Shown here one piece after another: positions 1,926-33,100 of a DNA stretch of 64,000 nt (positions are counted from its first letter, which is position 1; every line of letters begins with the position of its first letter). Position numbers and translations under genes: made by a program. Source of the stretch: a virus; IMG/VR virus record IMGVR_UViG_3300025132_000028, positions 1 to 64,000 of that record; one strand, 5' to 3'. Under the pieces are notes generated by a model. It saw only the letters and a program-made list of their open reading frames with translations, searched no databases and was not told the DNA's origin.

Positions 1926-1950
1926 AAGTACATACCACACAGGAGCATTC

Positions 1951-3032: not shown

Positions 3033-3034
3033 TC

Positions 3035-4325: not shown

Positions 4326-4435
4326 ATACTATTGAAAGAAAACCGAAAAAAACAAAACAAGGGAAGGGTAGACATACAAAATATGCTGCAAGTTCCCGTA
4401 ATTCCAAGAAAAAGCGTCCTAGAGGTCAAGGATGA
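4322..4435 (+). CDS. very basic 37-aa peptide
   Basis: A frame starting with GTG in the overlap GTGA with the previous stop, and ending in ATGA with the next start, so it is embedded in a coupled chain of three genes. The product (NTIERKPKKTKQGKGRHTKY, then AASSRNSKKKRPRGQG) is almost entirely basic and polar, like a ribosomal-protein tail, and probably binds nucleic acid. A very similar short gene is familiar in related phages. No function is known. Confidence 0.6.
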   Translation: MNTIERKPKKTKQGKGRHTKYAASSRNSKKKRPRGQG

Positions 4436-5118: not shown

Positions 5119-5144
5119 TTGTAAAAAAAGTTGTCGTTAATACG

Positions 5145-5152
5145 TATAAATA
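5145..5152 (+). promoter_or_regulatory. late promoter (TATAAATA) for gene 25
   Basis: A perfect TATAAATA, the T4 late promoter box read by gp55, lies 27 nt before the gene 25 ATG. It sits in the loop of an inverted repeat (TTGTCGT 5131-5137, ACGATAA 5164-5170, one G-T pair) whose 3' arm abuts the start codon. Confidence 0.75.
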
Positions 5153-5171
5153 AATTTAAAGCTACGATAAT

Positions 5172-5579
5172 ATGCCTATTTCCAATAGGATTACCTCAAA
5201 ATCGTTCAAAGATATCAGTTTTTCATTCACACCTCACCCAGTAACGAATGATTTGCTCGTTGTTAAGAACGAAGATGCAATAAAGACAGCAATTAAGAAT
5301 TGTGTTTTTACACTTCCTGGTGAAAAATTTTTTAATGCACAATTTGGATCGCCAATAAGAGATACTCTGTTTAATTTAATTGATGATGCAACTGCTTCTG
5401 TAGTTTCTGATACAATTAAGAACACAATTCAGTTATATGAAACTAGAGTTAGTAATGTTAGTGTTGAAGTTGAGTCTAGACCTGACCTAAATGCATTTGG
5501 AGTAACAATATTTTATGATATTATTGGGGATTTATCCTCAGCCCAAGCAATTTCGTTCATCCTAGAGGCTACAAGATAA
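5172..5579 (+). CDS. 25: baseplate wedge subunit gp25
   Basis: 135 residues, close to T4 gp25 (132). Gp25 has a lysozyme-like fold without needing lysozyme activity and forms part of the inner baseplate wedge, where it helps start sheath assembly. Diagnostic segments are FSFTPHPVTNDLLVVKNEDAI and IKNCVFTLPGEKFFNAQFGS followed by IRDTLFNLID, the GPW/gp25 pattern including the E-x-x-F turn. It starts behind a perfect late promoter, and its stop overlaps the ATG of gene 6 (TAATG), matching the coupled expression of two wedge proteins that bind each other. Confidence 0.93.
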   Translation: MPISNRITSKSFKDISFSFTPHPVTNDLLVVKNEDAIKTAIKNCVFTLPGEKFFNAQFGSPIRDTLFNLIDDATASVVSDTIKNTIQLYETRVSNVSVEVESRPDLNAFGVTIFYDIIGDLSSAQAISFILEATR

Positions 5580-13400: not shown

Positions 13401-16400
13401 ACATATGAAGATTCTGTGGCAGATGTCCCCGTTATAGTTTCTTTAACAAGTATTGGTGGTACGAGTCATAACTTTGGTTTAATTAATCCAAAAGTAGAAA
13501 TTCCTAGCAGATCTACAACTGTATTTGATTTACAAAACTATGAGTTAAATGGATATAATTTCAAAATTTATTATGACCAAGGATTTAATAGTGAGTTTGT
13601 AGGAACTGGTCAAAGTACATCTGCTGAAGTTGGTGATGTTCTTGATGCAGAAGATCGTGTAATTAGTATTGGTAACACTTATGCTAGATTAGATGTTAAT
13701 AATAATACCTTCTGTCCTAAGATTCTCTATTATAATGTTACTAAAGATGGAACACCATTAATTCCAGATAATGATGTAAAAGAAAATAATACTATTAAGT
13801 ATGTGGATAGTGCATACACTGGTATGTTTACGATCACTGGTATTGGTACTTCCGCAGTTGGAGTCGGTACTACTACATTTAGTTTTGCGATCGCAAAAAA
13901 TCCAGAGCAAGTTTCTTATGCTGCAACTGAGGGTAGAAGGTTCTATGCTACTGGTGCTGTTGGTCCAGAAGGTCCAATTGATCAGATTAGTTTACTATCC
14001 AGTGGAGAATTCTATAGAAAATTACCAAGATTCTTAGGTGTTGATTCTGAAAATGGTGATAACTCCACTATTAAACCAAAATCAACCAGAATTGGTCAAA
14101 TTAACTCAATTCAGTTAGTAAATGAAGGATTTAACTATTCTTCTGATACTACTTTAAGACCAATTGTTGATGTTCCTACTGTTACTACTATTAGAGACTT
14201 TAATACTGTTGGTACAATTAGTATTTTATCTAATGGTAAGAACTATATTTCTGCTCCTAAGTTAGAACTTGTTGATAGATTTGTAGGTACAAAAGTTCCT
14301 GGTGCTAATATTGTTGCAAGAATTAATGAAAACTCAGGTTCTATTGTAGATACAGAAATTGCAGCTAATCCTGTAGGTCTACAAAATAGAGAGTATAGGT
14401 TATATTCAGTTAATAATACAAACGGTATTGTCATCACAAAATCAGAATCTAACCCAACTAGAAGTGGTATTGTAACATTTACAATTTCTACTCCTGTTCT
14501 TGGGTTTAGTTCTCCTCCATTTGCTGTTAATGATGAAGTTTGGATCGAAGGTTTTTCAAAAGATTCTGGTTCAGATGGTTATAACTCATCTGATCATCTA
14601 TACAATTTCTTAAAAGTTAATAATGTTGTAACAACTAATCCATTCTCCTTTGAAGTTGATTATTCAAATTACACATTTAATGTTGGTTTGGGTGTTAGTG
14701 ATACTCAAAACTTCTCTCGTGTTATTGGTAAAGAAGAACTACCTACATTTAGTATTGGTTTACAACAAGCTTCATTTGATAAAAATGAAAAACTACTTGT
14801 AAATAATGCAGAGACTGATTTACAAGTTATCTCTTTTGATGCAACTGCTGAAAATATTAAGTTTGTTGGTACTGCTCCTATTGTTCCTGATGATATTATC
14901 ATTGGAGCAAAGAGTGGTAGTCAAGCAAAAGTTGTAGAAATCTTAAGATTTGATGGTGTTTACAGTGTAGAAGCTGAAACAGATAAGACTATTGAAGGAA
15001 CATCTGATTCTGGAAAACTAAATTCAAGTGCTCAAGTTATCCAAGATAATAATTATTATCAGAATCTTTCATATACACTTAAAACTGAAGTCTCTTATGA
15101 AGATTGTATTGATGCGGTAAACAACAGTGTTCACCCAACAGGTCTTAAAAACTTTGTTGATAGTCAGTTAGTAACTATTGGTAAGAATGCTGGTATTCAA
15201 ACTTCTACTACTGTTACTAATGCTACAGTAGATCTTGTTGAAGAAGTAAGAGTTGATGATCAATATTATTTTGATATAGGTAGAGATGTTAATATTGCAA
15301 CTAGAAGTGAGGTAGAACTCAGTAATGAGATTGAATTGGAAAATGCAAAATTATCTGACTATTTTGAATCTATTACAAACAGAGTTCTAAACATTGACGA
15401 TATTTCAAGTCAGTTTAGTAATATTAGTAATCCAAACACTTTGGATCTATTTGAAAATATTTACAGATATCCATTTAACTTTATCTCAAATAGATTCCTT
15501 GTTCAAATTACTAGTGAAGATCGTAGAGATTTCCAAGTTTCTGAAATTACTATTCTTCAAGATGGAACTAATACTTACTATGCAGAACCAACCTTTAAGA
15601 AATTACATAGTACACCACAAGAAATAGGAACTCTTGAAGGTTCTGTAGACACAGAGAATTCACAAGTTCGTTTAAGATTCTTCCCTGCTGATCCATTTGA
15701 TAAAAATTATGATATTAAAGTTCTAAATCAGTTTTATAATACTGAATCAACACTGACTGGTATTGGTACCACTGCGTTTGGTTTTGCTGCTCTAATGGGT
15801 TCTGATGCTGAAATTGGACCTTCTACATCTAAATCTTTTGTTTCTGTTGCAGCAACAAACTTTGATTATCTACATTCTCAAGTTGAAGTAGAAACTGTAT
15901 CTTCTGGTCAAAAAGAGACCATGTTTGTTGAACTGAAAGCAATTCATGATGGAAATGATAGTTATATGTCTGAATATAATATCATTCTTTCTGATGGTTC
16001 TTTTGGTGGTACTAACGCAGGTGCATTTGGTACATTTGGAACTACTTATGATCCTAGTGGTAATAACTTTAGTATTGAATTTTATAATGCTAGACCTTCT
16101 GAGTTTGTAAACTTAAAAGCAAGAACATTAGGTTTTGGTAATACTACTGGAACTACTAACAGAGACTATAGATTCTTAGCAACAGGAATGATTCCTAATA
16201 ACGAAAGATCTGCTCAGTATTATACTGAATATCAGACTGTTGGTGTTGGATCTACCGCAAACTTTGCTGGTATTAAGAGTGATATTCAGTCCGTAAACCA
16301 GTGTACAATGGTTGTTGGATATGGAAGGACAGTATCTGCCTTCCAGTATATGTTCTTGAATGACCAACTTGGTGATTCTCTATACTTCTCGGAATATCCC

Positions 16401-19400
16401 GTATTATCGGTCGGTAATACGACGGGTCTGGGAACGGTATTTGCCAAATATGATGGTGAAAAGGCTGTTCTTGTGTTTACACCTGAGGCAGGTATAAATG
16501 ACAAAATGTTCATGAGAACATTTAATGAAGTCCTTTACTTAGAACTTGAAAGAAATATTGTAAATCCATTGGAATATGGAGCAGTTGTTGAAGAAACTTT
16601 CAATACTACTTACACAGGTTTGAATTTCAGAAATATCTTTGAATTCCCAATGTTGTGGAATGGATATCCAATTTTCTCTAAAACATTTAATCCTTCTAAT
16701 ACTTCTGCACTTAATCTTGCTACTGGTCAATTTACTATTAAAAATCACTTCTTTGCAAGTGGTCAAGAATTAGAATATCTCCCTGGTGGAACATTTGTTG
16801 GTGTTGTCACAGCACCAATGACTCTTGCAAACGGAAATCCTCTACCATCTCCAGTTTACGCAATTAAAGATAATGAAGATCAGTTTAGAATCGGTCTCAG
16901 CACGGTAGCTGCCTTAGCTGGTATTGGAACTACTTTAGGATCTGTTGGTGCAGGTAATCTTCACGAATTTGATTCAACTGGTAAACTATCCAGATCTCTT
17001 ATTGCGATTGATGGTCTTGTTCAAAAACCACTTACTTGGTCACCAATTACTAGGACTCTAGAGAATAATACAACTCTTTCTGGTTCTAGTCTTGGTCTTG
17101 GTAAAACTTCCACATTTATGGCAGTTTCTGGTATTTCATCTATTGTTCTTGGTGATTTATTTGAGATTAATGATGAATTTGTACTTGTTGAAGCTGTTGG
17201 TGTTGGAACAACTACTACTGATATTAATTCTAGTGGTATTGGTACAATTAACTTATGTAAGATTCAACGTGGTTCAGTAGGAACAGCAGCATCGTTCCAT
17301 GCTAATGGTTCAATAATTCAAAAATACACTGGTTCTTATAACTTCTCTAGAAATAATATTTTCTTCACTGGTGCTCCTAATGGTGGTAAATCTTCTGATG
17401 AAGCATCTACAACTGGTATACCAGAAGCAGGATCTAGTTTTAATGGAAGAGTTTATTTGAGAAAAAATTATGATTCCAATAAAATCTTTGATGATATTTC
17501 TGGTCAGTTTACTGGTATTGCAAAAACATTTACTCTTAGATCTGAAGGTGAAGATATAACTGGTATTGGTAGTGAAGGTGGTTTTGGTATCTTCTTTGTG
17601 AACAATATGTTCCAAAAACCACAAACTCCAAATAACTTTAATGCAAACCTATTCATTAGAGAAACTGGTGGTCAGACTGATCTAACTTTCACTGGTATTC
17701 TTAATGAAAGTGGAGATCCTATTGTTTCTGCAACAGATATTAACCAAAATGGTTTACCTAGAGGTGGTGTTGTTGTTACTTTAGGTTCTAGCGAAGGTAA
17801 AGGATTTGCAAACCTAGGTAATCCATCTATTGGTGCTTCTATCAACCATGCAGGTGAAGTTTATAAGATTCTGACTGCACCAACAACTCAAGGAATGAGT
17901 AGCATTACCAATTATGTCTACGATCATACTATAGGACTTTCTACAGTTACAACCTCACAAGCACATGGATTAGAAGCAGGTGATAGTATTGATTTTGTAG
18001 GTATTGGATTTACTTGTGTACCAACTAAATCTGGAATTACTACTGGTGTCTTCCCATATACTAGAGGTCAGAAGAAGACTGTGGTTGACTTCCTTTATGA
18101 TAATAAAACTGGAATGGCAACAGTAACCACTCTAGAAAGATTTGGTATTTTAGAAGTAGGTGAGGAAGTATTCTTCAATGGTATTGGTTTCACATGTATT
18201 GGTCAAAAGTTTGCTCAAATCAGTCAGAAAGCTGGAATTACAACCACTCTCTTCCCTTGTAGAGCAGGTATTGCTAAGACTATCTCTGCCTTTAATTATG
18301 ATAATCAGTCTGGTATTGCTACTATTACTTTGGCAACTCCTCACAGATATGTGGAAGGGGAAAGACTCTTTATTGAAAATCTTAACTTAAAGTGTGGATA
18401 TGGTGCTAACATTACTAATGCCATCTATGACGCACCAACAGGTCTTACAACAATAACTACAGCAACTCCTCATAAATTCTCCAAAGGAGATAAGGTTAGA
18501 TTGCAGGGTCTTGAATTCTCTTGTGCTGGATATGGAATAACATTTGCTATTTCTACCTTTGAATATAATAATTCTACAGGTATTACTACGATTACAACTC
18601 CTAGTCCTCATGGAGCACTACCTGGAGAACAGATAAAATTAACTGGTCTTGGATTTACATGTCCAAAAGTTAATGTTGGAACACCTATTGGATTTACTTA
18701 TGAACCTTTAACTGGTCTTTCTACAGTCACATTTGCTTCTAATCATGGATTAACAAATGGTGATAAAATCTCCATTGGTGCAAGTAGTATTGTATTTACA
18801 TGTACTTTAGATGGTGGTGCTACAACTCATCCATATCCTCGTCCTACAGACTTTGCATATAATAAGTATCTACCAATTTCAGGTGTAACTACAAATTCAT
18901 TCCAAGTTAATGTTGGAACTGGTGGTACAGGTACATTCCCACATACCTTTGTTAGTGCAACTACAAATGCGATTAAAACTCTTAACTATCTTGGAGTAAC
19001 AACTTCAACATTCCCAGATGGTACACAGGGAAATCAATTCAGAGTTACTAAAGTTCTTTCTCCAACCAAGATTCTAACAAATGTTGGTATAACTTCTATT
19101 CCTCATGTTTATACTGAAGGTGGTGAGGTACAGGTTGGTGTTACATCTCATATCTACCCAACTGGTAAATATGGATTTGAATTTATTGTTTCTAGCACAC
19201 CAACTAGAAATAAGTTCAGAGTTAACGTAGGACCTTCCACAATTGCTCACACTTATGTAAGTGGTGGTACTGCACTTCTTGGATTAAGTACAACCATATA
19301 TCCATCATCGCAATCAGGTATTGGTCACAGTATAACTGACTTTATTTACGATAATACTACTGGTCTTTCTACTATTACTGTTGCAAGAAATTCTATACCA

Positions 19401-22400
19401 TTTGCATTGGGTGATAGAGTCAACTTTGCTGGTTTAGGATTTACATGTCCTAGTGGTTTTGCTGGTCTAACATCAACTATTTTCCCACAATCATTAGGAA
19501 GAAAATATAATATTGGAACAGTTTTCTATAATAATGCTACTGGTCTTGCTACTGTAACCACAACTGCTGCTCATGATTTTAAAGTAACAGATAGTCTAGA
19601 TTTACAAAATCTTCTCTTTAATTGTTCTTCAGCATATGCTGGCGTAACTACTCATAGATTCCCAGATTATGTTGACGAACCTAATAGATCTTACAGAGTT
19701 CTAAGAATAGTTGATCCAAATACAATCTGGGTTGATGTTGGTGTTTCTACAATTGTTCACACATATAACCTTGGTAGACATACATGGGTAGGAGGAACAG
19801 CAAGTAATGCAGTTCAGTCTGGTGGTAATTATGTACATACATTCTTATCTGCTGTAACAAATGGAGTTACAAGTGACGTTGGTAATTTACCAAACCCAAT
19901 TACAAACGTAGCATATACTCCTAACACAGGTAATATGGTAATTACCTCTGCTACTCATTTATTAACAACTTCTAATACACTTACCATCGCTGATAACGCA
20001 TTGTCCTTCACATGTACAATGGATGGAAATACAGCAACGAAGACTTATCCAAGATCTACTGACCCTGTATCTGGACAAACTATTACTATTACAGGAACAA
20101 CTACTAATACTATTACAATTAACGTTGGAGCATCACCTATTGTTAATCATGATGTAACAAATGCTACTTATGACAACGATACAGGTGTAATGGTCTTAAC
20201 TATTGGTGCCCATACTCTAACAACTGGAACCAGTATTAAGATAGCAAACGGAGCATTGAGTTTTACATGCGAGGACGATAATAATGTAACAACTAAGACT
20301 TATCCTCGTGCTAGTGACCCTTATTATGATACTGCAATTAACATTGATGCAGTAGGGGCAGATACTATTACATTAAATGTTGGAATTAATACTCGTGGTA
20401 CAGTTTCTGCAATTAAGAAAACTGGTCCTTATGAAGTAACCAGACTTCTTGCACCTAGACCATATGATGTAACTAATGCCATCTATGATCCTGTTGTAGG
20501 TATCATGACTGTTACTGTTGGTAATGGACATGGTATTTCTGTTGGTGAAACTGTTGATATTGGAACTAATGCATTAACATTTACCTGTGATATGGATTCC
20601 ACAGGTTCTCAAAAAACATATCCAAGAAATTTAATTAAAACCTTTACAGCAACTAATGCCATCTATGATCCTGTTGTAGGTGTAACAACTATAACTGTTG
20701 CTGGTCATGGCATGGATGATGGATGTTGGGTCAAATTAGCAGATGAATCATTATCATTCATATGTGGTTATGGTGTAACTACTCATATATTTGTATCTGC
20801 AACAACTAATGCTGTTAATGTCCAGAGTGGTGCAGAATCTGGAAATGAAAAGACCCCTAACGCAGCAACTTATAATGCATCAACAGGTCTTCTTACATTA
20901 GGATTTGCAGCTGCTCATGGAATGTCAACTAGTGATACAATTACTCTTGATTTCAATTCATTAACATTTACTTGTGCTGCAGATTATCATGCAACAACCC
21001 ACACATATCCTCGTGTTACTGATCCTATTGCAGGAGTAACCACTGCTGTAACTGTTACATCAGGAACTGAGTTTACACTTAATGTTGGAGATTCTCTAGG
21101 AAGTAAGAGTGCAAAATCATATCCACGTTCTAGTGATCCTATTAGTGGAGAATGGATACAAGTTTCTAATACTACAACAGATACTTTTGAGATTCAGTCT
21201 TTATCTGACAATTCTACCCCATCTACAAACATAGATGCACATACATTTACATCTGCTGTAACAGGTGGTATTACACATAAAGTAGATAAATCATTCGAGC
21301 AACCAGTTTCAGTTGTTGGCGTTGGAAATACTACCATCGATCTTCAAGTTGGTAGATCACCGATAGTTAATTTCAACGTAACTAACGCTACATACGAACC
21401 AACAACAGGTGTTATGGAGTTGACTATTGGTTCTCATGCTTTTGCAGTCGGTCAACATATAAAATTAGCAGATAACTCAATATCATTTACTTGTACTTTA
21501 GATGGTAACACTTTAGTCAAGTCATATCCTCGTGCTAGTGGTACTGGTATCAATGCTGGTACTCCAGATTATGCATATCAGAAATCTTTAGAAATTAGTG
21601 CAGTAACCTCAACGACTATTACTATCAATGTCAACTCTAGTGTAGGTCTTTCTTCTATCAGTGACTTATCTGCTCATACATTTGATAGTGCAACTGCAGG
21701 CGCTGTTATTGCAGGTGGTAACTATGCACATACATTTGTTGGTGTTGCTACTGGTGCTATCACAAAAGGTGGTCCTAGATTCAACTGTAACGTCGGTATT
21801 ACCACTTACAAACACAACTATACACCTTCAATTGGCGTTGGTGAAGTAAGAAAACAGAACTTTGGTGGTGTAGATGATACCTTTATCGTAACTGGTATTG
21901 TCGGTAAGAAGTCGTTTACAATTGATGCTGGTATTTCAACTTATACTCACTTCTACGATGTAGATACAAAAAATGCAATCAGTAAGAAGAAACTAAGGAC
22001 TGATTCATTCATTGTTGATACTATTTACAGTGATAGGTCATTTAGAACTAATGTAGGGGTTTCTTCATATCGTCACGTATACGATCCAAAACCAAGTAAA
22101 GAACCTGGTGGTATTAGTAGTATTACTGGAATGACATACAACACCTCTACTGGTATTGCAACATTTACTGTTCCTAATCATGGAGCAATTGGTGGTGAAC
22201 TAATCAGTATTTCTGGTCTTGCCTTAACTTGTCCTGGCGGTACAGGTATTACAACTCATATTTTCCCAGATCCTAATGGTTTAAGTAGAAATATTAGCAC
22301 CGCTAATTATAATAATTTCACAGGTATAATGACAGTGACCACTAACGTTGGTCATGGTGTTACATTTGTTGGTCAGTTTGTAAAACTTGAAAATCTTGGT

Positions 22401-25400
22401 TTCGCTTGTACTGGCGGAGCTGGTGGAAGTCATACTTTTGTAAGTGCAGCAACTAGCGCAGTCCAGACTGGTGGTAACTATACACATACATTTGTTCCTC
22501 AATTTGGTTTGACACCAGATACTGCTTTGTATGATCCAGTTACAGGTATAATGACTGTTACTAATCAGCAATTGACTGTATCAGATGCGATTTATGATCC
22601 TGTTAGTGGTGAAATGACATTGACTGTTGGAGTTCATAGATTAACAAATTATGATAGTGTACGTCTTGACACAGAATCAATATCCTTTAGTTGTGTATTT
22701 GAAGGTAAGTTACAAACTAAGGCATATCCAAGATCAAATGGTAATGATTATGTCTATGATAAGGATTTACCAATCATACGTTATACATCTGACACAATTA
22801 CAGTCAATGTTAATGGTGGAAAAGGTGCTATCAGTCATGCTGTTCCTCATACCTTCATGAGTGCTACTTCAAAGGGTGTTAAAGTTAATCATGGATTAAG
22901 AAATGGTGATTATATTAAGTTTGATGATTATGCAGTAACATTTACATGTAATAAAGATGGTAATGCAACTCTTCATCCATATCCAAGACCTACTGATCCT
23001 CTTAGTGGTACATTTACACAGGTTACTGTTGTTGATGAGAACAAATTTAGTGTAGGAGTATTAACAGTTACACCTTCCACAGATACTTCAGTTCATACAT
23101 TTGTATCTGCTCTTGAGGGTGGTATTAAGAAAGAAGTAATTAATAGTGGCGGTGACCATCCACATACATTTGTTGGTACAGCAACTAGTGCAATCCAATC
23201 AGGTGGTAATTATGTTCATACATTCTTATCTGCTGTAGCAAACAGTGTTACCTCAAATGTTGGTAATTTACCTAATGCAGTAACAGATGTAGTATATACA
23301 CCTTCCAGTGGTGATATGGTAATTACTTCTGCTGCTCATTTATTAACTGGATCAAATACAATTTCTATTGCTAATAATGGATTATCCTTTACCTGTACAA
23401 TGGATGGCAATACAGCGACTAAGACATATCCTAGATCAACTGATCCTATTTCTGGAATTGCAACTGCTATTACAGCAACAACCACAGATACATTTACAAT
23501 CAACGTTGGTGCATCACCTATCGTAAATCATGATGTTACGGATGCAACTTATGATGCAGCGACAGGTGTGATGGTACTAACAATAGGTGCTCATACATTA
23601 CCAACTGGAACAAGTGTTAAGATTGCTAATGGTTCACTACCATTTACTTGCACAATGGATGGTAATACATCAACGAAGAATTATCCAAGATCTACTGATC
23701 CATTCTATGATACTGCTGTTGGTATTGCTTCGACAACCAGTACTACAATCACACTTAATGTAGGTAAATCTCCTATTCTCCCATTTGATGTTAGTGCTGC
23801 AACTTACGATGCTGCTACAGGTGTAATGGTAGTAAACATTGGTGCTCATACCTTAAAAACTGGAACAAGTGTTAAAATTAATGAAAAATCATTACTATTC
23901 ACATGTTCACAGGATGATAATGCAACAGTTCATGCATATCCTCGTTCAACTACTGCTTCTCTTACCGCAACAACTGGCACAGTTTATGATCCTGTTGTAG
24001 GTATCATGACCATCACCACTCCTGCTGCTCATGGAATGAAAAATGGTGATGAAGTTAAATTTGCTGATGGTGCGGTTTCATTCTCATGTCAATATGGTGT
24101 AGGTTCAGCACATACATGGGCTGGTGGAACAGTAACTGATGCTGTTACAATTACTGTTGGTCCTGTCCAGACAAAACATGATGTAACTAATGCCACATAT
24201 AATCCTGCAACTGGTGTTATGGTATTTACCATTGGGGCACATAGTTTCACAACTGATGACTTAGTAGAAATTGGTGCTGAGAAGTTTGCATTTACTTGTA
24301 CTGCTGACGGTAACGTCAAGACTAAGTATTATCCTCGTGCAACTGATCCTGCATATAATACTCCTCTATTAATTACTGCTGTAGACCAAGCTGGTGGAAC
24401 AATCACAGTTAATGTTGGTGCTACTAGTGGAACTGTGGCAACCGCATATCCTCGTTCTACTGATTTCATTAGTAATAGGTGGGTTGAAATTTCTAATGTA
24501 ACCACAAAAACATTTGATGTCCAAGTATTAGATGTAATCCCTTCTACAAATACTGATGCTCATACATTTGTATCTGGAGTTACTAATGGCATCACATTCA
24601 AACGTGCAAAAGACCCATACTATAATACTTCTGTTGCTATTGCTGCTACAACTAGTGATACAGTCAGTTTAAATGTTGGTGTATCAACTATCGTAAATTA
24701 TAATGTTTCTGATGCGAGTTACGATCCAAATTCAGGTAAAATGGTACTTACCATTGGTTCTCATGACTTAGATGTAGGAACAAGTATCAAGATAGCAGAT
24801 AACTCACTCACATTTACATGTGATAAAGATAATAATGCGACTCAGCATAGTTATCCTAGAACTCTTATAGAGACTAAAACTGTAACTGATGCTAATTACG
24901 ATCCTACTACTGGTATGATGGTACTTACTGTTCCTAACCACGGATTTGAGAATGGTAGGCAAATTAAGTTAGCAGATAATTCATTAACATTTACTTGTAC
25001 TCTTGATGGAAATACTACAAATAAAACTTATCCAAGACCAACTGATCCTTTCAGTGGTAAGTGGATAAAAGTACAAAACGTCACTACAAATACTTTTGAA
25101 GTACAAACATTAGCAACTGTACCTTCCACAAACGTTTCTGTACATACATTTGTAAGTGCAACTGATGAAGGTTTATCACATAAGAGAGATCCATTCTATG
25201 ATAATAATATTAATATTGAGGCAAGAACTCCAAATACTATTACTGTTAATATTGGTGCAACTCCAGATCTTCAGCAGAGTACTGGATTAACAGGACCAAC
25301 ATATTTCACTGATGTTCCTATCACTGGATTTAACTATACTAACGCTACTGGTGTTACAACTATAACCGCAGTTGGTCATGGACTAACAACAGGTGAAAAT

Positions 25401-28400
25401 GTAAAACTATCTGGTATTGCTTTGACATGTACTTCTGGTATGAAAACATATCCAGATGGTGGAACAGGATTCTTCTTCGGAGTAACTAACGTTATTGATG
25501 CTAATACTTTCGTAACAAACACAGGTATCTCAACTATAGTACACACATATGTCAGTGGTGGTAATGTAAGAACTGGTGTTACAAGTGACAAGTTCCCTAA
25601 TCCTCAAGGTTCATTTAGTAAGATTGCTAATTTTGAATATAACAATATGACTGGTTTGGCAACAGTAACAACCAATGGTTTCAATCAACTTGGAACTGGG
25701 CAGTTAATTAACTTTGAAAATATCCATATGCTTTGCCCAATTGGTAGTGGTACTACACATGTATTCCCACAAGATACTGGAACAGTTGTTAATATTAGTA
25801 ACTTCCAATATGATAATCAGTCTGGTATTGCGACCGTTACTACCGCAACCAACCATAATTTTGTCCGATTTAAGAAGGTTAGATTGCAGGGTATGACCGT
25901 ATCATGTGCATATGGTTCTAAGACTTATCCAGATAAGCAAACTGACTTTGAATTAACGACTATTGTTAACTCAACAACATTTGTAACTAATGTAGGAGTA
26001 TCAACTCTTGCTCATACATATGTTTCTGGTGGTACTGCAGCAGAAGTTAAATTTGCTGGTCCTTACACAGTTAAGGAAAGAATTGACAGAAATACATTCA
26101 CTGTTAATGTTGGTGTTTCTACTTACGTCCATACTTATGATCACTCTGGTAGAGTATCTCCTGTAAGATATACTGGACCTTATGAAGTACTTGCTATTAC
26201 TAATAGTAAGGAATATACCATCAATGTTGGAAGATCTCCAATTGCTCATACTTACACTGGTGGCGGTACATCCAAACCACAACAATACACTGGTCCTTAT
26301 AAGATAATTGCTGCACCTGACGCAAATACATTAAGAGTAAGAGTTGGTATTTCGACTTATCAACACTTCTACGGTAGTGGAGGTATGATTGCTAGGTTAC
26401 GCTCTGGTATTGCTGAGAAGAAACTAAATCCAGGTCCATTTAGAGTTAAAGATGTATATTCTGCTACTGAATTTACTACTGACGTTGGTATCTGTACATT
26501 TAAACACTTCTATCACTCTGGTGGTAAAGTTGGTAAGGTTAATCAATTCTTCCCTGGTAGTGGATTCTATGGAAATAATGTTCCAGTAACAGTAGTTCCT
26601 GAAAATGGTGTTGGAAGTGGTTTAACAGTTACTACTACAGTTGGTTTTGGTGGAAGTCTTGTTCCTTCTCTAGATTATGTTGGAACTGGATTTACTATTG
26701 CTCCAAGGTTAGAAACTCCTGGACCAGCTTATGATGATCTCCCAGTTAGAGGTCTCTTTAGACTAGGTATTGGTCAGACAACTGCTACTGGTATTGGATT
26801 ATCTGTAACTTTAAATGTTGGTGGTATTAGTACTAGTGGTGTTGCATCAGAAACAAGTGGCGTTAAAAACTTTACAATTGGAAACAGAGGATATGGTTTC
26901 CAACTCAATGATAAAGTTAGTCCTGTTGGTTTAGTAACCGCTGCGAAAATCCTTGCTGGATCTAAGACCGTTGGTTACACAACTGAAACTGAACCATTTG
27001 AACTTACAGTTATTGATACATTCTCTGATACTTTCTACGGATGGCAATTCGGTCAACTTGATTATATTGATGATATTACTTCATTACAAGATGGTGTAAC
27101 AAAGAGATTCCCACTATTCCAAAATGAGCAGTTAGTCAGTTTTGAGAAAGCAGATGGAACACCTATTAGTTTCCCATCACTTCTTATCATCTTTATTAAT
27201 GGTGTTCTTCAAATTCCAAACAAAGATTACATATTTGAAGGTGGTACTGCATTTGAATTCACAAGTCCTCCACAAGAGGCAGACCAAGTTACAATTTACT
27301 TCTATAGAGGTAGTAATGATGATGTTAATACTGTTAACGTAGTTGAATCCATTAAAATTGGTGATGAATTAATCTTAATTAAACCAGTTGGTGTTTCTAC
27401 TGTTCCAGATCAAGACCCAAGAGTTGTTAATGAAATTGTTGCATCTGATATTCTTGCAACTAACTTATACTCTCTACAGGGTATTGATAACAACTTCAAG
27501 AGACCTGTTGTTTGGAGAAAACAAAAAGTTGATAGAACTGTTGATGGACGTATTATTCCTAAGACTCGTGAAGCACTAGAACCACAAATCTATCCAACAG
27601 CAAGAATTATTGGTTCTGCATCTACAACTCAAGATTTCCTCTTCCTTGATAATGCTAGTTTGTTTAACTATGAAGCAGTGACTCCATCTACCAACTTCGA
27701 TGGTATCATTACTCAAGGAGAAGATCCAGTTGTAGGTATTCTAAGTGTTGGAGTAAATGCTGGTACAATTTCTACAATCACTGTTATCAATGGTGGTTCT
27801 GGATATACTGGAATCGTAACAATTTCCATATCCAATCCACCTGATATCACGGTTGGTTTTGGAACAACTGCATTAGCAACTGCAATTATTTCCAACGGTG
27901 CAGTTATTGGTGCAAATATCACCAATGCTGGTAGTGGATATGGAACAAGTGCATATGCGTTATTACCAACTCCACCTGTAAGTATTGAAAGTGTTTCATT
28001 AATACCAACTGTAAATGGTTATGAAGGTGATATTATTGGAATTGCAACTGCCACTGGAATTGGTACCAATCTCAGCGTCAAGTTTACTTTAGATCTTCCA
28101 AATTCTCCATCAGATACTCTTAGAGATGGAATGAGAATATTTGTTAACAATACTAATGTTGGTTCAGGTGTAACTTCTATTGATACCAACAACTCTCAAG
28201 TAATTGGTATTGGAACAACTGCTTGTGATAACATCTTTAAGGTTCACCAAGTTCAGTATGATGCAGGTAACGGAATCATAACCGCTTTCTGTAATATTGA
28301 TTCAAATTCAAATACTTCTGGACTTAATACTGTTGGATTTGCATACACTAATGTCGGTTTCTACAGTTGGGGAATTGTTACTGGATTTAGTAGAGGAACT

Positions 28401-28514
28401 GCTCCAATTGCAATAAATGTTGATGGAAATACGTTCTCTGTTGGTCTCGGATCATACCCACTTTTCCAGAGAAGAGGGTTTGGTTTAAGGGGTACTGGAG
28501 GAATCACAAAATAA
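7473..28514 (+). CDS. giant 7,013-residue baseplate/tail structural protein at the gene 7 position
   Basis: One open frame of 7,013 codons occupies the gene 7 slot between 6 and 8; T4 gp7 has about 1,030 residues. The N-terminus (FVLEDNPKFADFLRQYYISQ) is typical of cyanophage proteins in this slot. A YHYH-type domain lies at about 1350-1470 (GWAYDGNPIFGPF, later DLDVHNGRWF and FPYYIGDTY). Residues 3476-6355 are about 28 related modules, each with one FTC-like Cys. Residues 6537-6600 (DGVTKRFPL, FINGVLQIPNKDY, DQVTIYFYRG) are a domain common in these phages. G-x-G-Y beta repeats occur throughout. By position it should join the wedge or project from the baseplate; a host-contact role is inference. 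No frameshift is evident. Confidence 0.85.
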   Translation: MINKRVKIKDVIESQLPRFVLEDNPKFADFLRQYYISQEFQGGAIDLAENLDQYIKLDNLVDNVINPDIILERACTSTDTDIVLSSSDGLPDEYGLIKVGDEIITYTERDGNTVKGCIRGFSGISKYRDENNPEELIFESTDTSAHVSGVVVFDTTGYTAADYYYQSATITKMFGIIRVKASGTSGRSTPTTFRLGITNIDNDFYQLSNANRDSNANDLTTLGIDSLGLNQTIVIDEGDTIEFIVNAQGFPLWIQSTGNGYDTTTVLTTGITNGGASTTTTVQNLSVEFLKEYYIKLKELYAPGFEDRTLSSGINVGNFLKNVNSFYKTKGTRESFRILFNVLYGKKVQVVDLEDFVVKSSTSDYLRRAIVVVKAISGNPLLLTGQTLYQDSDPTNADVQVASGPISEVEIFTRQGEEFYKIPLFVGFNEQSLVSGEFFVPGFTKNTLLASANTRVINVDSTVGFSRSGSFFIDSLGITVTYTDKNLTQFLGCSGLTSDLPVGSEVRSTVIAYGYEGGDSTKKVEMRITGVLGEFEAQGNNYYLDVGNEIYIKSIGENISPPADPLTLPTYKQRIFNSWIYNIATRYEVAEITGSTLSVSDKFDKSNLRTGDSVEILARGTNTITTTAVVTVIDSNTLQLSNTTGITTDRNWDIRRVISRATSSNDLIEFGNQTIISNIQNAYVTKNKVNESMYVATQGLPSFSFSVDKVFVDFRGQDVGIGQIDQLVSFQTNLPFVTGDEIVYEALSGSTALEGLVSGTRYFIWVNPAANNQLKLANARSFIEVSKFIELKTGTGTHRLTLASQYGKNIQPQKILRQFPLKPSVSSGLAQTTSYGPTGMLINGIEILNYKSNDYLYYGPLQSVELVSGGSDYDVINPPKITVSNPGVGGTVAVINPVLSGSLKSLYLENRESYDIDQVFGINIEGGNGEGASGEITLSQDYTEANFNAKDILANGGVDIPANTLTFIGEHNFKTGQKIVYNPNGNQPLGVAITLGSDDNTQYDAENTLQSGVAYFANVINTTTIKLHETEDDANAGLSTVGITTFNTLGIHKFRSFDFKNKIQNISVVTEGSGYKKRTYETKTTGISTGTNCFIIKQHGFLDNEEVIYQATNSIRELTTETNYRIIRINADAFRLALSETDVNRGRYIFLSDVGSGIHTVKYPDITATVVASIGGTTVSIPCEPDVRGEIIGAYLSEPGSNYGSKVLNFEKPPLITVSSGTGAQFQPLISNGVITQVQIIGAGSNYTSAPDLTVTGPTGSGAQLKAKLNANGKVSTVEVISGGLNYDAEDTAIVVRSVGQSGIIESTVRPLTVNLHEKYSTDDFLNAETQYPIQYASLAYSTDLQTDFGDSLAQRSPIIGWAYDGNPIFGPFATRDPKQNTGITTYVRSGYQLASNLVPNRPTAGEYPAGFFVEDYKFMGTGDLDVHNGRWFVSDDFPDGIYGYVATLEIDPGTGLPRASFPYYIGDTYIAPRASQSISQDDDINALDLSRNTYPYRLKSLNASYDFVIEADELIGQEGVIDSVFTGGVEELEIVEAGDLYKVGNTLLFDEEGTNGNGVSAQVSFIKGKSVTDLQSTNVQFDEVTFQKTGDTEITGIIQPNHDFNNGEVIEIFNTNTDIKGLQGFHVVGVASERAILLDPVKAGAVGVVTDLIVSRIPGNVSGGSSIKFSDGEVAKVLNVIKGKNLVRIERTGIASFSASGTISYLQDRFTIASDAPQFVSEFFPKKFFNPKQTVGVGTTVGNYETLSYTENNIAQTRVVEHGSIFLNKHPFLDGQKALFVKKSGQLSLGVATAIGIGTTATLVADSLPRSGVEQEVFIIYKSINTIGIKTQKNGAELFFTSDGSDDDGYFVQGIGTAVRGSVLQPTTTVTTTQAHGLKIGDTVNFNVIANQEVGLGASSRVRIELNSEGLIIVDSQGISSTGVNTSTNRISISGNNFRTGDRVYYEPKSEVIGGLGTGRYYIYRDSPENFRLCETYEDSVADVPVIVSLTSIGGTSHNFGLINPKVEIPSRSTTVFDLQNYELNGYNFKIYYDQGFNSEFVGTGQSTSAEVGDVLDAEDRVISIGNTYARLDVNNNTFCPKILYYNVTKDGTPLIPDNDVKENNTIKYVDSAYTGMFTITGIGTSAVGVGTTTFSFAIAKNPEQVSYAATEGRRFYATGAVGPEGPIDQISLLSSGEFYRKLPRFLGVDSENGDNSTIKPKSTRIGQINSIQLVNEGFNYSSDTTLRPIVDVPTVTTIRDFNTVGTISILSNGKNYISAPKLELVDRFVGTKVPGANIVARINENSGSIVDTEIAANPVGLQNREYRLYSVNNTNGIVITKSESNPTRSGIVTFTISTPVLGFSSPPFAVNDEVWIEGFSKDSGSDGYNSSDHLYNFLKVNNVVTTNPFSFEVDYSNYTFNVGLGVSDTQNFSRVIGKEELPTFSIGLQQASFDKNEKLLVNNAETDLQVISFDATAENIKFVGTAPIVPDDIIIGAKSGSQAKVVEILRFDGVYSVEAETDKTIEGTSDSGKLNSSAQVIQDNNYYQNLSYTLKTEVSYEDCIDAVNNSVHPTGLKNFVDSQLVTIGKNAGIQTSTTVTNATVDLVEEVRVDDQYYFDIGRDVNIATRSEVELSNEIELENAKLSDYFESITNRVLNIDDISSQFSNISNPNTLDLFENIYRYPFNFISNRFLVQITSEDRRDFQVSEITILQDGTNTYYAEPTFKKLHSTPQEIGTLEGSVDTENSQVRLRFFPADPFDKNYDIKVLNQFYNTESTLTGIGTTAFGFAALMGSDAEIGPSTSKSFVSVAATNFDYLHSQVEVETVSSGQKETMFVELKAIHDGNDSYMSEYNIILSDGSFGGTNAGAFGTFGTTYDPSGNNFSIEFYNARPSEFVNLKARTLGFGNTTGTTNRDYRFLATGMIPNNERSAQYYTEYQTVGVGSTANFAGIKSDIQSVNQCTMVVGYGRTVSAFQYMFLNDQLGDSLYFSEYPVLSVGNTTGLGTVFAKYDGEKAVLVFTPEAGINDKMFMRTFNEVLYLELERNIVNPLEYGAVVEETFNTTYTGLNFRNIFEFPMLWNGYPIFSKTFNPSNTSALNLATGQFTIKNHFFASGQELEYLPGGTFVGVVTAPMTLANGNPLPSPVYAIKDNEDQFRIGLSTVAALAGIGTTLGSVGAGNLHEFDSTGKLSRSLIAIDGLVQKPLTWSPITRTLENNTTLSGSSLGLGKTSTFMAVSGISSIVLGDLFEINDEFVLVEAVGVGTTTTDINSSGIGTINLCKIQRGSVGTAASFHANGSIIQKYTGSYNFSRNNIFFTGAPNGGKSSDEASTTGIPEAGSSFNGRVYLRKNYDSNKIFDDISGQFTGIAKTFTLRSEGEDITGIGSEGGFGIFFVNNMFQKPQTPNNFNANLFIRETGGQTDLTFTGILNESGDPIVSATDINQNGLPRGGVVVTLGSSEGKGFANLGNPSIGASINHAGEVYKILTAPTTQGMSSITNYVYDHTIGLSTVTTSQAHGLEAGDSIDFVGIGFTCVPTKSGITTGVFPYTRGQKKTVVDFLYDNKTGMATVTTLERFGILEVGEEVFFNGIGFTCIGQKFAQISQKAGITTTLFPCRAGIAKTISAFNYDNQSGIATITLATPHRYVEGERLFIENLNLKCGYGANITNAIYDAPTGLTTITTATPHKFSKGDKVRLQGLEFSCAGYGITFAISTFEYNNSTGITTITTPSPHGALPGEQIKLTGLGFTCPKVNVGTPIGFTYEPLTGLSTVTFASNHGLTNGDKISIGASSIVFTCTLDGGATTHPYPRPTDFAYNKYLPISGVTTNSFQVNVGTGGTGTFPHTFVSATTNAIKTLNYLGVTTSTFPDGTQGNQFRVTKVLSPTKILTNVGITSIPHVYTEGGEVQVGVTSHIYPTGKYGFEFIVSSTPTRNKFRVNVGPSTIAHTYVSGGTALLGLSTTIYPSSQSGIGHSITDFIYDNTTGLSTITVARNSIPFALGDRVNFAGLGFTCPSGFAGLTSTIFPQSLGRKYNIGTVFYNNATGLATVTTTAAHDFKVTDSLDLQNLLFNCSSAYAGVTTHRFPDYVDEPNRSYRVLRIVDPNTIWVDVGVSTIVHTYNLGRHTWVGGTASNAVQSGGNYVHTFLSAVTNGVTSDVGNLPNPITNVAYTPNTGNMVITSATHLLTTSNTLTIADNALSFTCTMDGNTATKTYPRSTDPVSGQTITITGTTTNTITINVGASPIVNHDVTNATYDNDTGVMVLTIGAHTLTTGTSIKIANGALSFTCEDDNNVTTKTYPRASDPYYDTAINIDAVGADTITLNVGINTRGTVSAIKKTGPYEVTRLLAPRPYDVTNAIYDPVVGIMTVTVGNGHGISVGETVDIGTNALTFTCDMDSTGSQKTYPRNLIKTFTATNAIYDPVVGVTTITVAGHGMDDGCWVKLADESLSFICGYGVTTHIFVSATTNAVNVQSGAESGNEKTPNAATYNASTGLLTLGFAAAHGMSTSDTITLDFNSLTFTCAADYHATTHTYPRVTDPIAGVTTAVTVTSGTEFTLNVGDSLGSKSAKSYPRSSDPISGEWIQVSNTTTDTFEIQSLSDNSTPSTNIDAHTFTSAVTGGITHKVDKSFEQPVSVVGVGNTTIDLQVGRSPIVNFNVTNATYEPTTGVMELTIGSHAFAVGQHIKLADNSISFTCTLDGNTLVKSYPRASGTGINAGTPDYAYQKSLEISAVTSTTITINVNSSVGLSSISDLSAHTFDSATAGAVIAGGNYAHTFVGVATGAITKGGPRFNCNVGITTYKHNYTPSIGVGEVRKQNFGGVDDTFIVTGIVGKKSFTIDAGISTYTHFYDVDTKNAISKKKLRTDSFIVDTIYSDRSFRTNVGVSSYRHVYDPKPSKEPGGISSITGMTYNTSTGIATFTVPNHGAIGGELISISGLALTCPGGTGITTHIFPDPNGLSRNISTANYNNFTGIMTVTTNVGHGVTFVGQFVKLENLGFACTGGAGGSHTFVSAATSAVQTGGNYTHTFVPQFGLTPDTALYDPVTGIMTVTNQQLTVSDAIYDPVSGEMTLTVGVHRLTNYDSVRLDTESISFSCVFEGKLQTKAYPRSNGNDYVYDKDLPIIRYTSDTITVNVNGGKGAISHAVPHTFMSATSKGVKVNHGLRNGDYIKFDDYAVTFTCNKDGNATLHPYPRPTDPLSGTFTQVTVVDENKFSVGVLTVTPSTDTSVHTFVSALEGGIKKEVINSGGDHPHTFVGTATSAIQSGGNYVHTFLSAVANSVTSNVGNLPNAVTDVVYTPSSGDMVITSAAHLLTGSNTISIANNGLSFTCTMDGNTATKTYPRSTDPISGIATAITATTTDTFTINVGASPIVNHDVTDATYDAATGVMVLTIGAHTLPTGTSVKIANGSLPFTCTMDGNTSTKNYPRSTDPFYDTAVGIASTTSTTITLNVGKSPILPFDVSAATYDAATGVMVVNIGAHTLKTGTSVKINEKSLLFTCSQDDNATVHAYPRSTTASLTATTGTVYDPVVGIMTITTPAAHGMKNGDEVKFADGAVSFSCQYGVGSAHTWAGGTVTDAVTITVGPVQTKHDVTNATYNPATGVMVFTIGAHSFTTDDLVEIGAEKFAFTCTADGNVKTKYYPRATDPAYNTPLLITAVDQAGGTITVNVGATSGTVATAYPRSTDFISNRWVEISNVTTKTFDVQVLDVIPSTNTDAHTFVSGVTNGITFKRAKDPYYNTSVAIAATTSDTVSLNVGVSTIVNYNVSDASYDPNSGKMVLTIGSHDLDVGTSIKIADNSLTFTCDKDNNATQHSYPRTLIETKTVTDANYDPTTGMMVLTVPNHGFENGRQIKLADNSLTFTCTLDGNTTNKTYPRPTDPFSGKWIKVQNVTTNTFEVQTLATVPSTNVSVHTFVSATDEGLSHKRDPFYDNNINIEARTPNTITVNIGATPDLQQSTGLTGPTYFTDVPITGFNYTNATGVTTITAVGHGLTTGENVKLSGIALTCTSGMKTYPDGGTGFFFGVTNVIDANTFVTNTGISTIVHTYVSGGNVRTGVTSDKFPNPQGSFSKIANFEYNNMTGLATVTTNGFNQLGTGQLINFENIHMLCPIGSGTTHVFPQDTGTVVNISNFQYDNQSGIATVTTATNHNFVRFKKVRLQGMTVSCAYGSKTYPDKQTDFELTTIVNSTTFVTNVGVSTLAHTYVSGGTAAEVKFAGPYTVKERIDRNTFTVNVGVSTYVHTYDHSGRVSPVRYTGPYEVLAITNSKEYTINVGRSPIAHTYTGGGTSKPQQYTGPYKIIAAPDANTLRVRVGISTYQHFYGSGGMIARLRSGIAEKKLNPGPFRVKDVYSATEFTTDVGICTFKHFYHSGGKVGKVNQFFPGSGFYGNNVPVTVVPENGVGSGLTVTTTVGFGGSLVPSLDYVGTGFTIAPRLETPGPAYDDLPVRGLFRLGIGQTTATGIGLSVTLNVGGISTSGVASETSGVKNFTIGNRGYGFQLNDKVSPVGLVTAAKILAGSKTVGYTTETEPFELTVIDTFSDTFYGWQFGQLDYIDDITSLQDGVTKRFPLFQNEQLVSFEKADGTPISFPSLLIIFINGVLQIPNKDYIFEGGTAFEFTSPPQEADQVTIYFYRGSNDDVNTVNVVESIKIGDELILIKPVGVSTVPDQDPRVVNEIVASDILATNLYSLQGIDNNFKRPVVWRKQKVDRTVDGRIIPKTREALEPQIYPTARIIGSASTTQDFLFLDNASLFNYEAVTPSTNFDGIITQGEDPVVGILSVGVNAGTISTITVINGGSGYTGIVTISISNPPDITVGFGTTALATAIISNGAVIGANITNAGSGYGTSAYALLPTPPVSIESVSLIPTVNGYEGDIIGIATATGIGTNLSVKFTLDLPNSPSDTLRDGMRIFVNNTNVGSGVTSIDTNNSQVIGIGTTACDNIFKVHQVQYDAGNGIITAFCNIDSNSNTSGLNTVGFAYTNVGFYSWGIVTGFSRGTAPIAINVDGNTFSVGLGSYPLFQRRGFGLRGTGGITK
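19811..20270 (+). repeat. long duplicated block in the giant gene, copy A
   Basis: About 460 nt that align without visible gaps to 23192-23651, exactly 3,381 nt (1,127 codons) downstream. Both encode QSGGNYVHTFLSAV, VGNLPN, FTCTMDGNTATKTYPRSTDP and NVGASPIVNHDVT in the same order. Confidence 0.75.
23192..23651 (+). repeat. long duplicated block in the giant gene, copy B
   Basis: The second copy of the 460-nt block at 19811. Most differences are third-position changes, with some amino acid replacements, for example ITNVAYTPNTGN against VTDVVYTPSSGD. The reading frame is kept throughout. Confidence 0.75.
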
Positions 28515-30129: not shown

Positions 30130-33100
30130 ATGCCACAAAGAACCAATTTAAATATTAATCCATATTATGACGATTTTGACGCAGAAAACAATTACTATAG
30201 GGTATTGTTCAAGCCTGGTTTTCCAGTTCAGGCTAGAGAATTAACTACATCTCAATCTATTCTTCAGAATCAGATTGAGAAATTTGCTAGACATACTTTC
30301 AAAGATGGATCTGTTGTAATACCTGGTGGAGTTAGTTATGATTTTGATTATCAATCAATTCAGATTGAATCAACTTTCCTTGGTTTGAATGTTGGTGATT
30401 ATATTACATCTTTTATAGGAAAAGAGATTAGAGGTCAACAAACAGGTCTTGAAGCAAAGATTGTAAATGTTCTTCTTTCTTCGCAAACATCGAGTGGTAA
30501 TATTACTCTTTTCATAAAATATACTTCTGGTACATCTGGTAATCAAGTAGGTGCTTTCCAAGACGGAGAGACTTTAATTACTGAAGAAAACGTTGTATAT
30601 GGAAATACAACTATTTCTAGTGGAAACACTTTTGCAGTTACTATTGCAACTAATGCAGCACAAATAGGTTCTGCTGCTCACGTAGATGCTGGTACTTTCT
30701 TCTTCAGAGGTTATTTTGTTGATGTTAAAAAGCAAACAGTAGTTTTAGACGAAGCCGACGATACCCCTTCATACAGAGTTGGTCTTCAAATTAGTGAAGA
30801 GATTGTAAACGCAAAGCAAGATAATACTTTATATGATAATGCAAAGGGTTTTACTAACTTTGCTGCTCCTGGTGCTGATAGATTTAAAATCCAAACTACT
30901 TTAGTTAAAAAGAGTCTTACTGATCTTAATGACTCAAGTTTTATTGAACTCTTAAGAGTTGACGAAGGTGTACTTTTAAATGTACCCAATAAACCAGCGT
31001 ATTCTGTTATTAAAGATTATATTGCTGAAAGAGATTTTGAGAGAACTGGTAACTTCTTCGTTGAACCTTTTGATATTACTTTCCATGAGTGTTTGAATAA
31101 TAGAAGAGGTAATAATGGTCTGTTTTATGATAATCAAGTAACTGATGAAGGTGCTGTTCCTTCTAACGATTTAGCTTGTGTTTCTGTAGGTTCTGGTAAA
31201 GCATATGTAAAAGGTTATGATATTGATAGACCTGTTGCAACAATTTTAGATATTCCAAAACCAAGAACAACTCGTAAAATTGAAGATGCTTTTGTTCCAT
31301 ATAATCTAGGTAGTCAAGTTCAAGTAAATAATGTTTATGGACATCCTGCAATTAAGAGAGAAGTTCAATTATACAGTCAAAGATTAGGTGCTAATGGAAC
31401 TACTCTTGCGGGTGAAAGAATTGGTGATTGTAGGTGCTATTCTTTTAATTTAACTTCTGGAGAATACTTATCTCCTAAAACTCCATTTACTTTATTTGTT
31501 TATGATGTAACATTATATCAGAAGTTACATCTTGCTAATCCTCTCAGTGCTGCTCAACTTCCTGCTGGTGCATATATTACAGGTCAATCTAGTGGTGCAT
31601 CTGGATATGTAACCGCAGCTGGTACTGGAAGTGCCAAAGTCTTTGTAAGAGATACAAGTGGAACTTTCATCCAAGGTGAAACAATTTATATTAATGGCAT
31701 TAAAGAGAATGCTAGAAAAACTTTAGATGTAAGAGTATATGATAGTACTGATGTAAAATCTGTTTATCAACAAGCTTCTGCATTAGGTCTACAGGCAAAT
31801 TTCTATGGTGATGTACTTTTAGTAGGTCAACCTGTTCCTGGATTTAAAGAAACAGACCAATTTAATATTACTGCTGCTGGTAAAGTATCAATTAACAGTA
31901 AAACTCTTACTGGTATTAAAACAGATTCTTTACTCGCTGTTCAGCAAGTTGGTTTTACAACAACCACTTTGTATAGAGTAAAAGATATTGCAAAAACTGG
32001 ACTTGAAGTTACTATAGAAGCAACCACAGATGTTGTTGGAATTACTACTGGTGCTCTTCCTGCAGCGAATATTACATCAACAATTATTGCTTTTACACCT
32101 ATTGTACAAAATATTAATCAGGATGAGATGTATGTTTCTCTTCCACAAAGTGATGTTGCTACAGTAGATTTACAAAATTCAAGTCTTGAGTTTCATACCC
32201 AACTTACTGCATTAGCAACTAATGGTTCTGGTGAAATGACAATCACTAATACCAGTGGTGTTCAAGGTGCTTTATTTGAAGCATTTGATGAAGAAAGATA
32301 TAGTATTGTTTATTCTGATGGTGTTATTGCAACAATATCATCAAATAAATTTGAATATAACAGTGGTTCAAATACAATCACAATTAAAGGTTTAAGACAA
32401 TCTCAAACTAACGTTGTTGCCAATGTTGTGATGAAGAAACCTCAGTTTAAGGCAAAGAGTAAGGTTGTTAATCGATCACAAGTTGTAAATATTACTAGAT
32501 CTGCAAATAAACAATCTGGATCTACAGCAAATAATAGTTTAAATGATGGTTTGTCATTTAGTACGTTTTTTGGAACTAGAATTCAAGATAAGAAAATTTG
32601 TTTGAATTATCCAGAGGTTATTGAAGTTCTTGCTATTCATGAATCTTTTGATTCTAATGCACCTACATTCGATAAACTAAATCTCACTTCTGTAGAAAAT
32701 GTACAGACTAGTGCTATTATTGGTGAAAGTATTATTGGTAATGATAGTAAAGCAATTGCAAGACTTGTAGCAAAACCTGGTGCTGCTCAAGTAGAGTTTG
32801 TATATTTAACTGATGCTAGATTTATTCTTGGGGAAGATATTTCTTTTAATGAGAGTGATATTGTTGCAAGTATTGATAGTATTGTTAATGGAAGTTATAA
32901 AGATATTACTTACAGATATTCATTAAGTAATGGTCAAGAACATGCGTTCTCAAACTATGCTTCTCTTAGTCGAAGTGCTAGTAGTGGTCAACCTCCAACT
33001 AGACAGTTAAAAGTTGTATTTGATTATTACTCTGTTCCTTCTGGTGATGATGGTGATGTTGTAACTGTAGATAGTTACCCACAGTCTGTGTTTAGAGGAT

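Follow-up and report, generated by a model that had tools for sequence, protein, structure and literature searches.

We have analysed a stretch of 64,000 nucleotides (the window), positions 1 to 64,000 of the virus record IMGVR_UViG_3300025132_000028, which has 72,663 bases. This stretch is the tail and head module of a marine myovirus of T4-like type, with the gene order wedge subunit, gp6, a giant open reading frame (ORF), gp8, a DUF4815 protein, neck protein, sheath stabiliser, terminase, sheath, portal, scaffold and capsid; the capsid protein is closest to those of Synechococcus phages (74%). Our subject is the giant ORF and the array of repeated units within it, which an earlier note, made from the letters alone, had described as a rod of about 28 tandem cysteine-bearing modules. 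The genes concerned and the parts of the giant ORF lie as follows.

5172-5579: baseplate wedge subunit
5579-7471, + strand: gp6-like baseplate wedge protein (Pfam Gp6-like_1st, E 1.7e-16; phrog_219)
7473-28514, + strand: giant gp7-type baseplate wedge ORF, 7013 amino acids (aa) (PHROG 2885; cyanophage gp7 matches)
7473-17900, + strand: N-terminal gp7-family core of the giant ORF (phrog_2885 columns 152-3331 of 4179)
Residues 1269-1450, within the N-terminal core: YHYH domain (PF14240, E 1.2e-23)
17901-26507, + strand: array of 28 predicted beta-barrel units, probably nested, residues 3477-6345 (profiles, motif counts, parse)
26541-28511, + strand: C-terminal gp7-family core (phrog_2885 columns 3525-4177; 99 phage records)
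28564-30120, + strand: gp8-like baseplate wedge protein (Pfam Phage-Gp8, E 4.6e-15; phrog_438)
30130-37566: DUF4815 protein, 2478 aa

Judged by its sequence, the giant ORF encodes a baseplate wedge protein of gp7 type, from a marine T4-like phage. Its first 3465 residues match PHROG 2885 ('baseplate wedge subunit') with 2497 bits and its last 650 residues match the same family with 424 bits, over the columns given above, and the gene stands between gp6 and gp8 homologues, in the synteny gp6-gp7-gp8. Since the array sits between these two matching cores, it represents an expansion at a single place of a conserved baseplate protein. The C-terminal part as a query matched 99 phage records (83 Synechococcus, 12 Prochlorococcus, three 'Marine' and one Cyanophage), and many among the 60 matches listed bear the name gp7 or baseplate wedge. 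The Pfam model of T4 gp7 (Baseplate_wedge, PF23786) reached 20 bits on the giant ORF, under its cut-off of 27. According to a passage of PMC7029224, T4 Gp7 is absent from these phages and VrlC takes its place; the GenBank record of P-HM2 has both a gp7 and a separate VrlC gene annotated. With the gp7 of marine T4-like cyanophages the protein shares the whole core and the synteny, and the repeated unit is found in P-SSM2, P-HM2 and S-T4. From gene coordinates, however, their gp7 proteins measure 5195, 4454 and 4749 aa, respectively, compared with 7013 aa here.

The array begins exactly where the earlier note had placed its start, at 17901 (residue 3477), and was found to end at about 26507. A profile of the first half-module (Y[DN]xxTG ... 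HGL..G ... FTC; 41 aa, ending in Cys) detects 27 full copies above 30 bits between residues 3477 and 6145, together with two partial copies (5016 and 5138) which are two parts of one split copy; the whole unit has 85 aa. A regular expression found 29 YP/FP strand motifs, and as one of them (3822) lies within another element, 28 remain, in agreement with the number first proposed. In five-fold held-out scoring all 25 seed copies obtained 20.8-60.0 bits, and the best score in 200 shuffles of the region was 6.9 bits. The idea of small equivalent beta domains is borne out. Two flavours of unit, a YPR type and a GVTTxxFP...HTYVSGG type, do exist, but they do not strictly alternate, and we have dropped that part of the description. 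The copies are diverged at the DNA level, since Tandem Repeats Finder detected no repeat in the array and its ungapped DNA repeats, some spaced 255 nucleotides, are 60-78% identical. The earlier note had not recognised the family. No Pfam family indeed reached its cut-off across the array, but PHROG families cover it (phrog_5342, 1276, 18802, 3442, 701 and 17885, with functions going no further than tail fibre or virion structural protein), and the predicted fold resembles known ones. Weak matches to the first half-module also occur in the N-terminal core, at about 10362-10410, 12240-12311 and 13077-13136 (residues 964, 1590 and 1869; best 10.3 bits), and these are possibly further, very diverged barrels outside the array.

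For the incomplete units of the array, the window was aligned to a profile made of 72 contiguous units of other phages; neither this alignment nor the first set of triples included the loci that are nearly identical to the window (L002-L007, L009-L013 and L016). A triple consists of an opener (a first half, O), a full unit (F) and a closer (a second half, K), and its misfit is given in profile positions. These classes and their thresholds were fixed after the window had been examined, and redundant triples were removed at 80% (and 50%) identity. The first locus set held 44 non-redundant triples, four of them from the window, with a mean misfit of 3.7 positions and 38 within 5; when the closers were shuffled 20,000 times, the mean was 15.9, the best value 9.1, and no shuffle was as good as the observed order. 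Further loci, retrieved with a nested segment of the window as the query (of L101-L179 only L107-L179 were used), gave 33 triples with a mean misfit of 3.8, 26 of them within 5, and in 20,000 shuffles no fit was as good; at 50% redundancy 27 triples were left, 21 within 5, and again no shuffle did as well. Taken together, 65 of 78 non-redundant triples are complementary within 5 positions. The mirror order K-F-O, used as a control, occurred 18 times with a mean misfit of 14.6 (nine within 5), and complementary consecutive opener-closer pairs around more than 12 residues of non-unit sequence were found in no case. The outer halves, once joined, score 78.0-115.1 bits as one unit, which is comparable to intact units. 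Cuts fall at three sites, profile positions of about 18-28, 42-47 and 54-58, all of them in loops of the predicted fold. Nested copies are also present in the gp7 of cultured phages. In P-HM2 the halves at 2407 (2-25) and 2542 (27-77) enclose the unit at 2436, and in P-SSM2 those at 3772 (2-20) and 4012 (27-80) enclose a second pair, 3804 (3-44) and 3954 (46-77), with the unit at 3871 inside it.

Thus, at the level of the amino acid sequence, two halves of one domain flank a whole domain and are cut at matching positions, and we regard the interrupted units as nested because their points of truncation and restart are complementary across the enclosed unit. Could the array nevertheless be a plain tandem rod in which the units are lined up like beads, some of them degenerate or truncated? 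Units of 85 aa do follow each other head to tail at residues 4143-4305 and 5270-5435, and it is there that units are gained and lost. However, 15 of the 28 units in the window are interrupted by whole units, and random truncation would not yield cut and restart points which complement each other across an enclosed unit. We therefore reject the simple rod, which we consider very unlikely; of the earlier picture the small domains stand, while their head-to-tail order gives way to a nested one. The elements of the window on which this reading is built are listed here by nucleotide position, with residue numbers of the giant ORF.

18279-18677, + strand: three successive openers at 3603, 3646 and 3693, first halves only, spaced 43-47 aa
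18684-18926, + strand: complete innermost unit 3738-3818 (86 bits, profile 2-81)
18984-19232, + strand: two closers, 3838-3872 and 3889-3920, second halves only
20466-20630, + strand: outer opener of a double nest, 4332-4386 (profile 1-54)
20646-20777, + strand: inner opener, 4392-4435 (profile 1-44)
20853-21095, + strand: complete unit 4461-4541 within the double nest
21102-21197, + strand: closer 4544-4575, completing 4392 (profile 45-76)
21282-21371, + strand: closer 4604-4633, completing 4332 (profile 55-84)
22512-22565, + strand: opening part of a split unit, 5014-5031 (profile 1-18)
22575-22814, + strand: complete unit 5035-5114, lying between the two parts of the split unit
22887-23060, + strand: remainder of the split unit, positions 20-77, 5139-5196
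23280-23777, + strand: two contiguous tandem units; site of an 85-aa gain or loss among relatives (residue 5357)
23787-24701, + strand: double nest, 5439 and 5708 around 5501 and 5655 around 5570
24705-24863, + strand: outer opener 5745-5797 of the nested pair modelled with AlphaFold2 (profile 2-54)
24879-25106, + strand: inserted complete unit 5803-5878
25182-25274, + strand: outer closer 5904-5934 (profile 54-84)
26070-26507, + strand: four successive closers (6200, 6238, 6278 and 6322) at the array end, for openers left open upstream, the first from 3477 (inspection and weak profile matches)

By profile, six pairs in the window are clear: 4332/4604, 4392/4544, 5014/5139, 5439/5708, 5501/5655 and 5745/5904. 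When first halves, YP strands and final strands are taken as tokens, the array parses into 28 barrels to a depth of seven and closes at the last closer (6322-6345), directly before the conserved core; the depth and the exact balance are held less firmly than the nesting itself. No order parsed when the 33 incomplete fragments were arranged at random 300,000 times. A stack parse without the four split fragments (5014, 5138, 4312 and 4768) fails, which we put down to the opener at 3953 losing its closer. It may be asked whether the halves pair with other partners, crossed or domain-swapped, so that an interlocked fibre and no nest would result. By profile, halves that share a cut type could be exchanged for one another, and the true assignment in the window ties with another of the 720. 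Ten double nests bear on the question: nested pairing beats crossed pairing in seven, the other three are ties and do not discriminate, and it is never the worse of the two. Since, in addition, the modelled nested pair is confident throughout, we think that crossed pairing is unlikely, although it has somewhat more in its favour than the simple rod.

Three tandem units (residues 5266-5497; alignment of 68 rows) gave a structure prediction with a mean predicted local distance difference test score (pLDDT) of 90.8. A nested pair (5739-5937) modelled with AlphaFold2 reached a pLDDT of 89.2 and a predicted template modelling score of 0.78, with the outer closer at 92-93. The alignment A4 held two rows which are not clean nests (L058:6667-7224 and L132) and a near-duplicate pair from L119. 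In structure comparison by VIA, the three-unit model was most similar to the phi92 and K1F endosialidases (Z 6.2), followed by UBA6 (5.9). For the nested-pair model the order was reversed, with UBA1 and UBA6 at Z 8.0 (UBA1 with 2.6 A over 75 residues) ahead of the endosialidases of phi92 (7.8) and K1F (residues 424-509; 7.1); outside these families, the phage head-to-tail protein 9jlf had 6.9 and the next row 5.7. The match covers model residues 61 to 166-169, including a short strand before the inner unit and the 'HTFVSA' strand after it. The outer barrel had no structure match of its own among those listed, and the strands of the outer closer are confidently predicted. Foldseek found nothing in the PDB for the three-unit model at E 0.001, and a PDB sequence search with two units and both cores gave no convincing match. 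Against viral models, Foldseek returned 34 matches for the nested model at E 0.001, the named ones being mostly cyanophage structural proteins with no function given. Among 68 members of the family, 13 weakly match End_beta_barrel (PF12195; the most frequent family, best E 0.0063) and four match E1_FCCH (PF16190), which scores 21 bits on the array, below the Pfam cut-off of 29.5. The structure matches and the weak Pfam matches thus agree, and the unit is predicted to be an 85-aa beta-barrel that, among solved structures, comes closest in fold to the FCCH domain of ubiquitin-activating enzymes (E1; UBA1, UBA6 and UBA7) and the beta-barrel of phage endosialidases. Both relatives, unlike the array, have a single copy of the domain, and the endosialidase is a capsule-cleaving tailspike, whereas no sign of capsule cleavage was seen here. 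The endosialidase shares with the giant ORF the setting in a phage tail protein. In E1 the FCCH domain is itself an insertion with both ends together, and the endosialidase barrel is likewise an insertion; we know of no self-nesting of the FCCH domain.

In the window the first half-module ends in Cys in each of the 27 full copies and in the split copy, and this column is invariant in the 72 contiguous units from other phages. It had been suggested that disulphides stabilise the rod, and one cysteine per unit at a fixed, invariant position is what such a proposal builds on. Yet 71 of the 72 units have no second cysteine, so that bonds would have to join different barrels, and relatives with one barrel more or fewer alter the parity, which makes a constant pairing impossible. 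Phages, moreover, are assembled in the reducing cytoplasm. Disulphides are therefore improbable, and we have rejected the disulphide-stabilised rod, to which we give hardly any credence.

That the length of the array varies among relatives by gain or loss of units, as the earlier note expected, is seen directly. Close relatives were retrieved with the C-terminal core as a query and compared by alignment, as profile-based unit counts vary by 1-2 through partial matches. The protein of L002 is identical to that of the window in 3592 of 3593 residues. L005 and L007 have exactly one additional unit of 85 aa at residue 5357 and an extra segment of 19 aa (3286 of 3589 and 3279 of 3590 aligned residues identical), while L003 lacks 85 aa at the same residue (75 plus 10) and a 17-aa segment (3305 of 3490 identical). 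Relatives which differ by one unit are thus 92-95% identical. The ratio of nonsynonymous to synonymous substitution rates is 0.14-0.47, alike in array and core, and points to purifying selection on the array. The short 'HTF/HTW' segment of 17-19 aa (residues 5223-5239 of the giant ORF; L005) is gained or lost on its own among relatives, and similar segments flank inserted units, before or after them. In cultured phages the array is smaller: 6-10 first-half profile matches, partial ones included and with P-HM2 counted from a cut stretch, compared with 28 barrels here.

We consider it probable that the array consists of about 28 recursively nested copies of an FCCH/endosialidase-type barrel within a gp7-type wedge protein, forming a surface arm for which contact with glycans would be the likeliest role. 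A barrel whose ends are adjacent could be placed in a loop of another barrel, and the step could be repeated. Whole barrels would be inserted at three loops, those that follow strand 2, the Cys strand and the YP strand, so that the chain would run outward through first halves and return through the matching second halves. As both ends of the arm would lie close together, it could be attached at one loop of the wedge core and leave the core undisturbed. Gain and loss proceed by whole barrels. Such an arm, probably exposed at the surface of the baseplate, may make multivalent contacts with glycans of the host surface. We propose this because part of PMC12632334 describes the endosialidase beta-barrel as a hotspot of host discrimination and as one of the three places where the K1F tailspike binds polysialic acid; we rate glycan contact at the cell surface as no better than an even chance.

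Is the nested arm perhaps a passive spacer or scaffold, for instance for fibres, which binds no ligand? The units have one conserved core pattern, many structural proteins contain them, under the annotations baseplate, virion structural or tail fibre, and the FCCH domains of E1 do not bind sugars. The other closest fold does have a sialic acid site, as the same part of PMC12632334 reports, and the arm belongs to a phage tail protein; both points speak against a spacer indirectly. The spacer is a serious contender, to which we give slightly less than an even chance. Several observations weigh against the nested, glycan-binding arm. Misfits above 5 positions are found in 13 of the 78 half pairs. 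In the whole-array parse, one split closer (4312/4768) and the weak closers of the second flavour were placed by eye. VIA warns that Z scores near 8 can be common, of the 50 structure matches listed for the nested model 49 cover the inner barrel only, and the contacts between split halves are inferred. Furthermore, a shared fold by itself shows no function.

The protein families and the fold are of known kinds. Like ordinary domain-insertion proteins and tandem-repeat fibres, the array has domains in the loops of others and gains and loses repeats; here, in contrast, the inserted and the receiving domain belong to the same family, and insertion is recursive and uses several loops. Domain insertion is normally occasional, one domain in another, whereas here one domain is apparently its own recursive insertion site in many marine phages. 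In the literature searched (by title or the start of the abstract) we found no report of self-nested phage domains, nor of recursive self-insertion of one domain on such a scale, and the parts of PMC7029224 and PMC3037559 which treat the baseplates and divergent gp7 of these phages do not mention self-nesting. Perhaps there is a bracket-like grammar, in which one family is inserted in itself at a few permitted loops, to a depth of seven, into a branched, tree-like arm that grows by barrel cassettes and gives the structural proteins of T4-like marine phages a rapidly evolving device for multivalent host contact; for this broader view we find the case evenly balanced. Nesting would explain how a conserved baseplate protein can carry very long arms whose two ends join it at a single place, and why the output of repeat finders is a confusing mix of halves. 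It would also offer a natural case for studying how a nested chain of 28 barrels folds and how such arms evolve.

One unit as a query matched 326 of 50,697 phage records, each of which bears the name Synechococcus, Prochlorococcus, Cyanophage or Marine, and a plasmid search with three units gave no match. Contigs of prokaryote genomes yielded 14 loci, mostly titled as marine metagenome-assembled genome contigs. One of them, L091 (NZ_RMVE01000006.1), is a 188-kb contig filed under the bacterium Nonlabens xiamenensis but apparently of cyanophage origin, in which the 10.6-kb stretch examined is 98.8% identical to cyanophage P-TIM40 (188,632 bases); from this identity, the assembly probably contains a phage contaminant. 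The others (L087-L090 and L092-L100), most of them titled as marine metagenomic contigs of Flavobacteriales, Euryarchaeota, Dehalococcoidia and other groups, together with a Prochlorococcus contig, are probably mis-binned or co-sorted phage contigs.

Elsewhere in the window, the DUF4815 protein contains a stretch (34054-34310, residues about 1309-1394) in which 21 W, 18 R, 16 Y and 11 G are found among 85 residues, and which is conserved in L005. The ORF at 61033-62316 matches tryptophan halogenase (PF04820, E 2.2e-42), unusual beside phage structural genes. Finally, matches to a ferredoxin-family PHROG (phrog_3704) and to an NAD-dependent epimerase/GDP-mannose dehydratase are found at 4432-5118 and 57159-58091, respectively.

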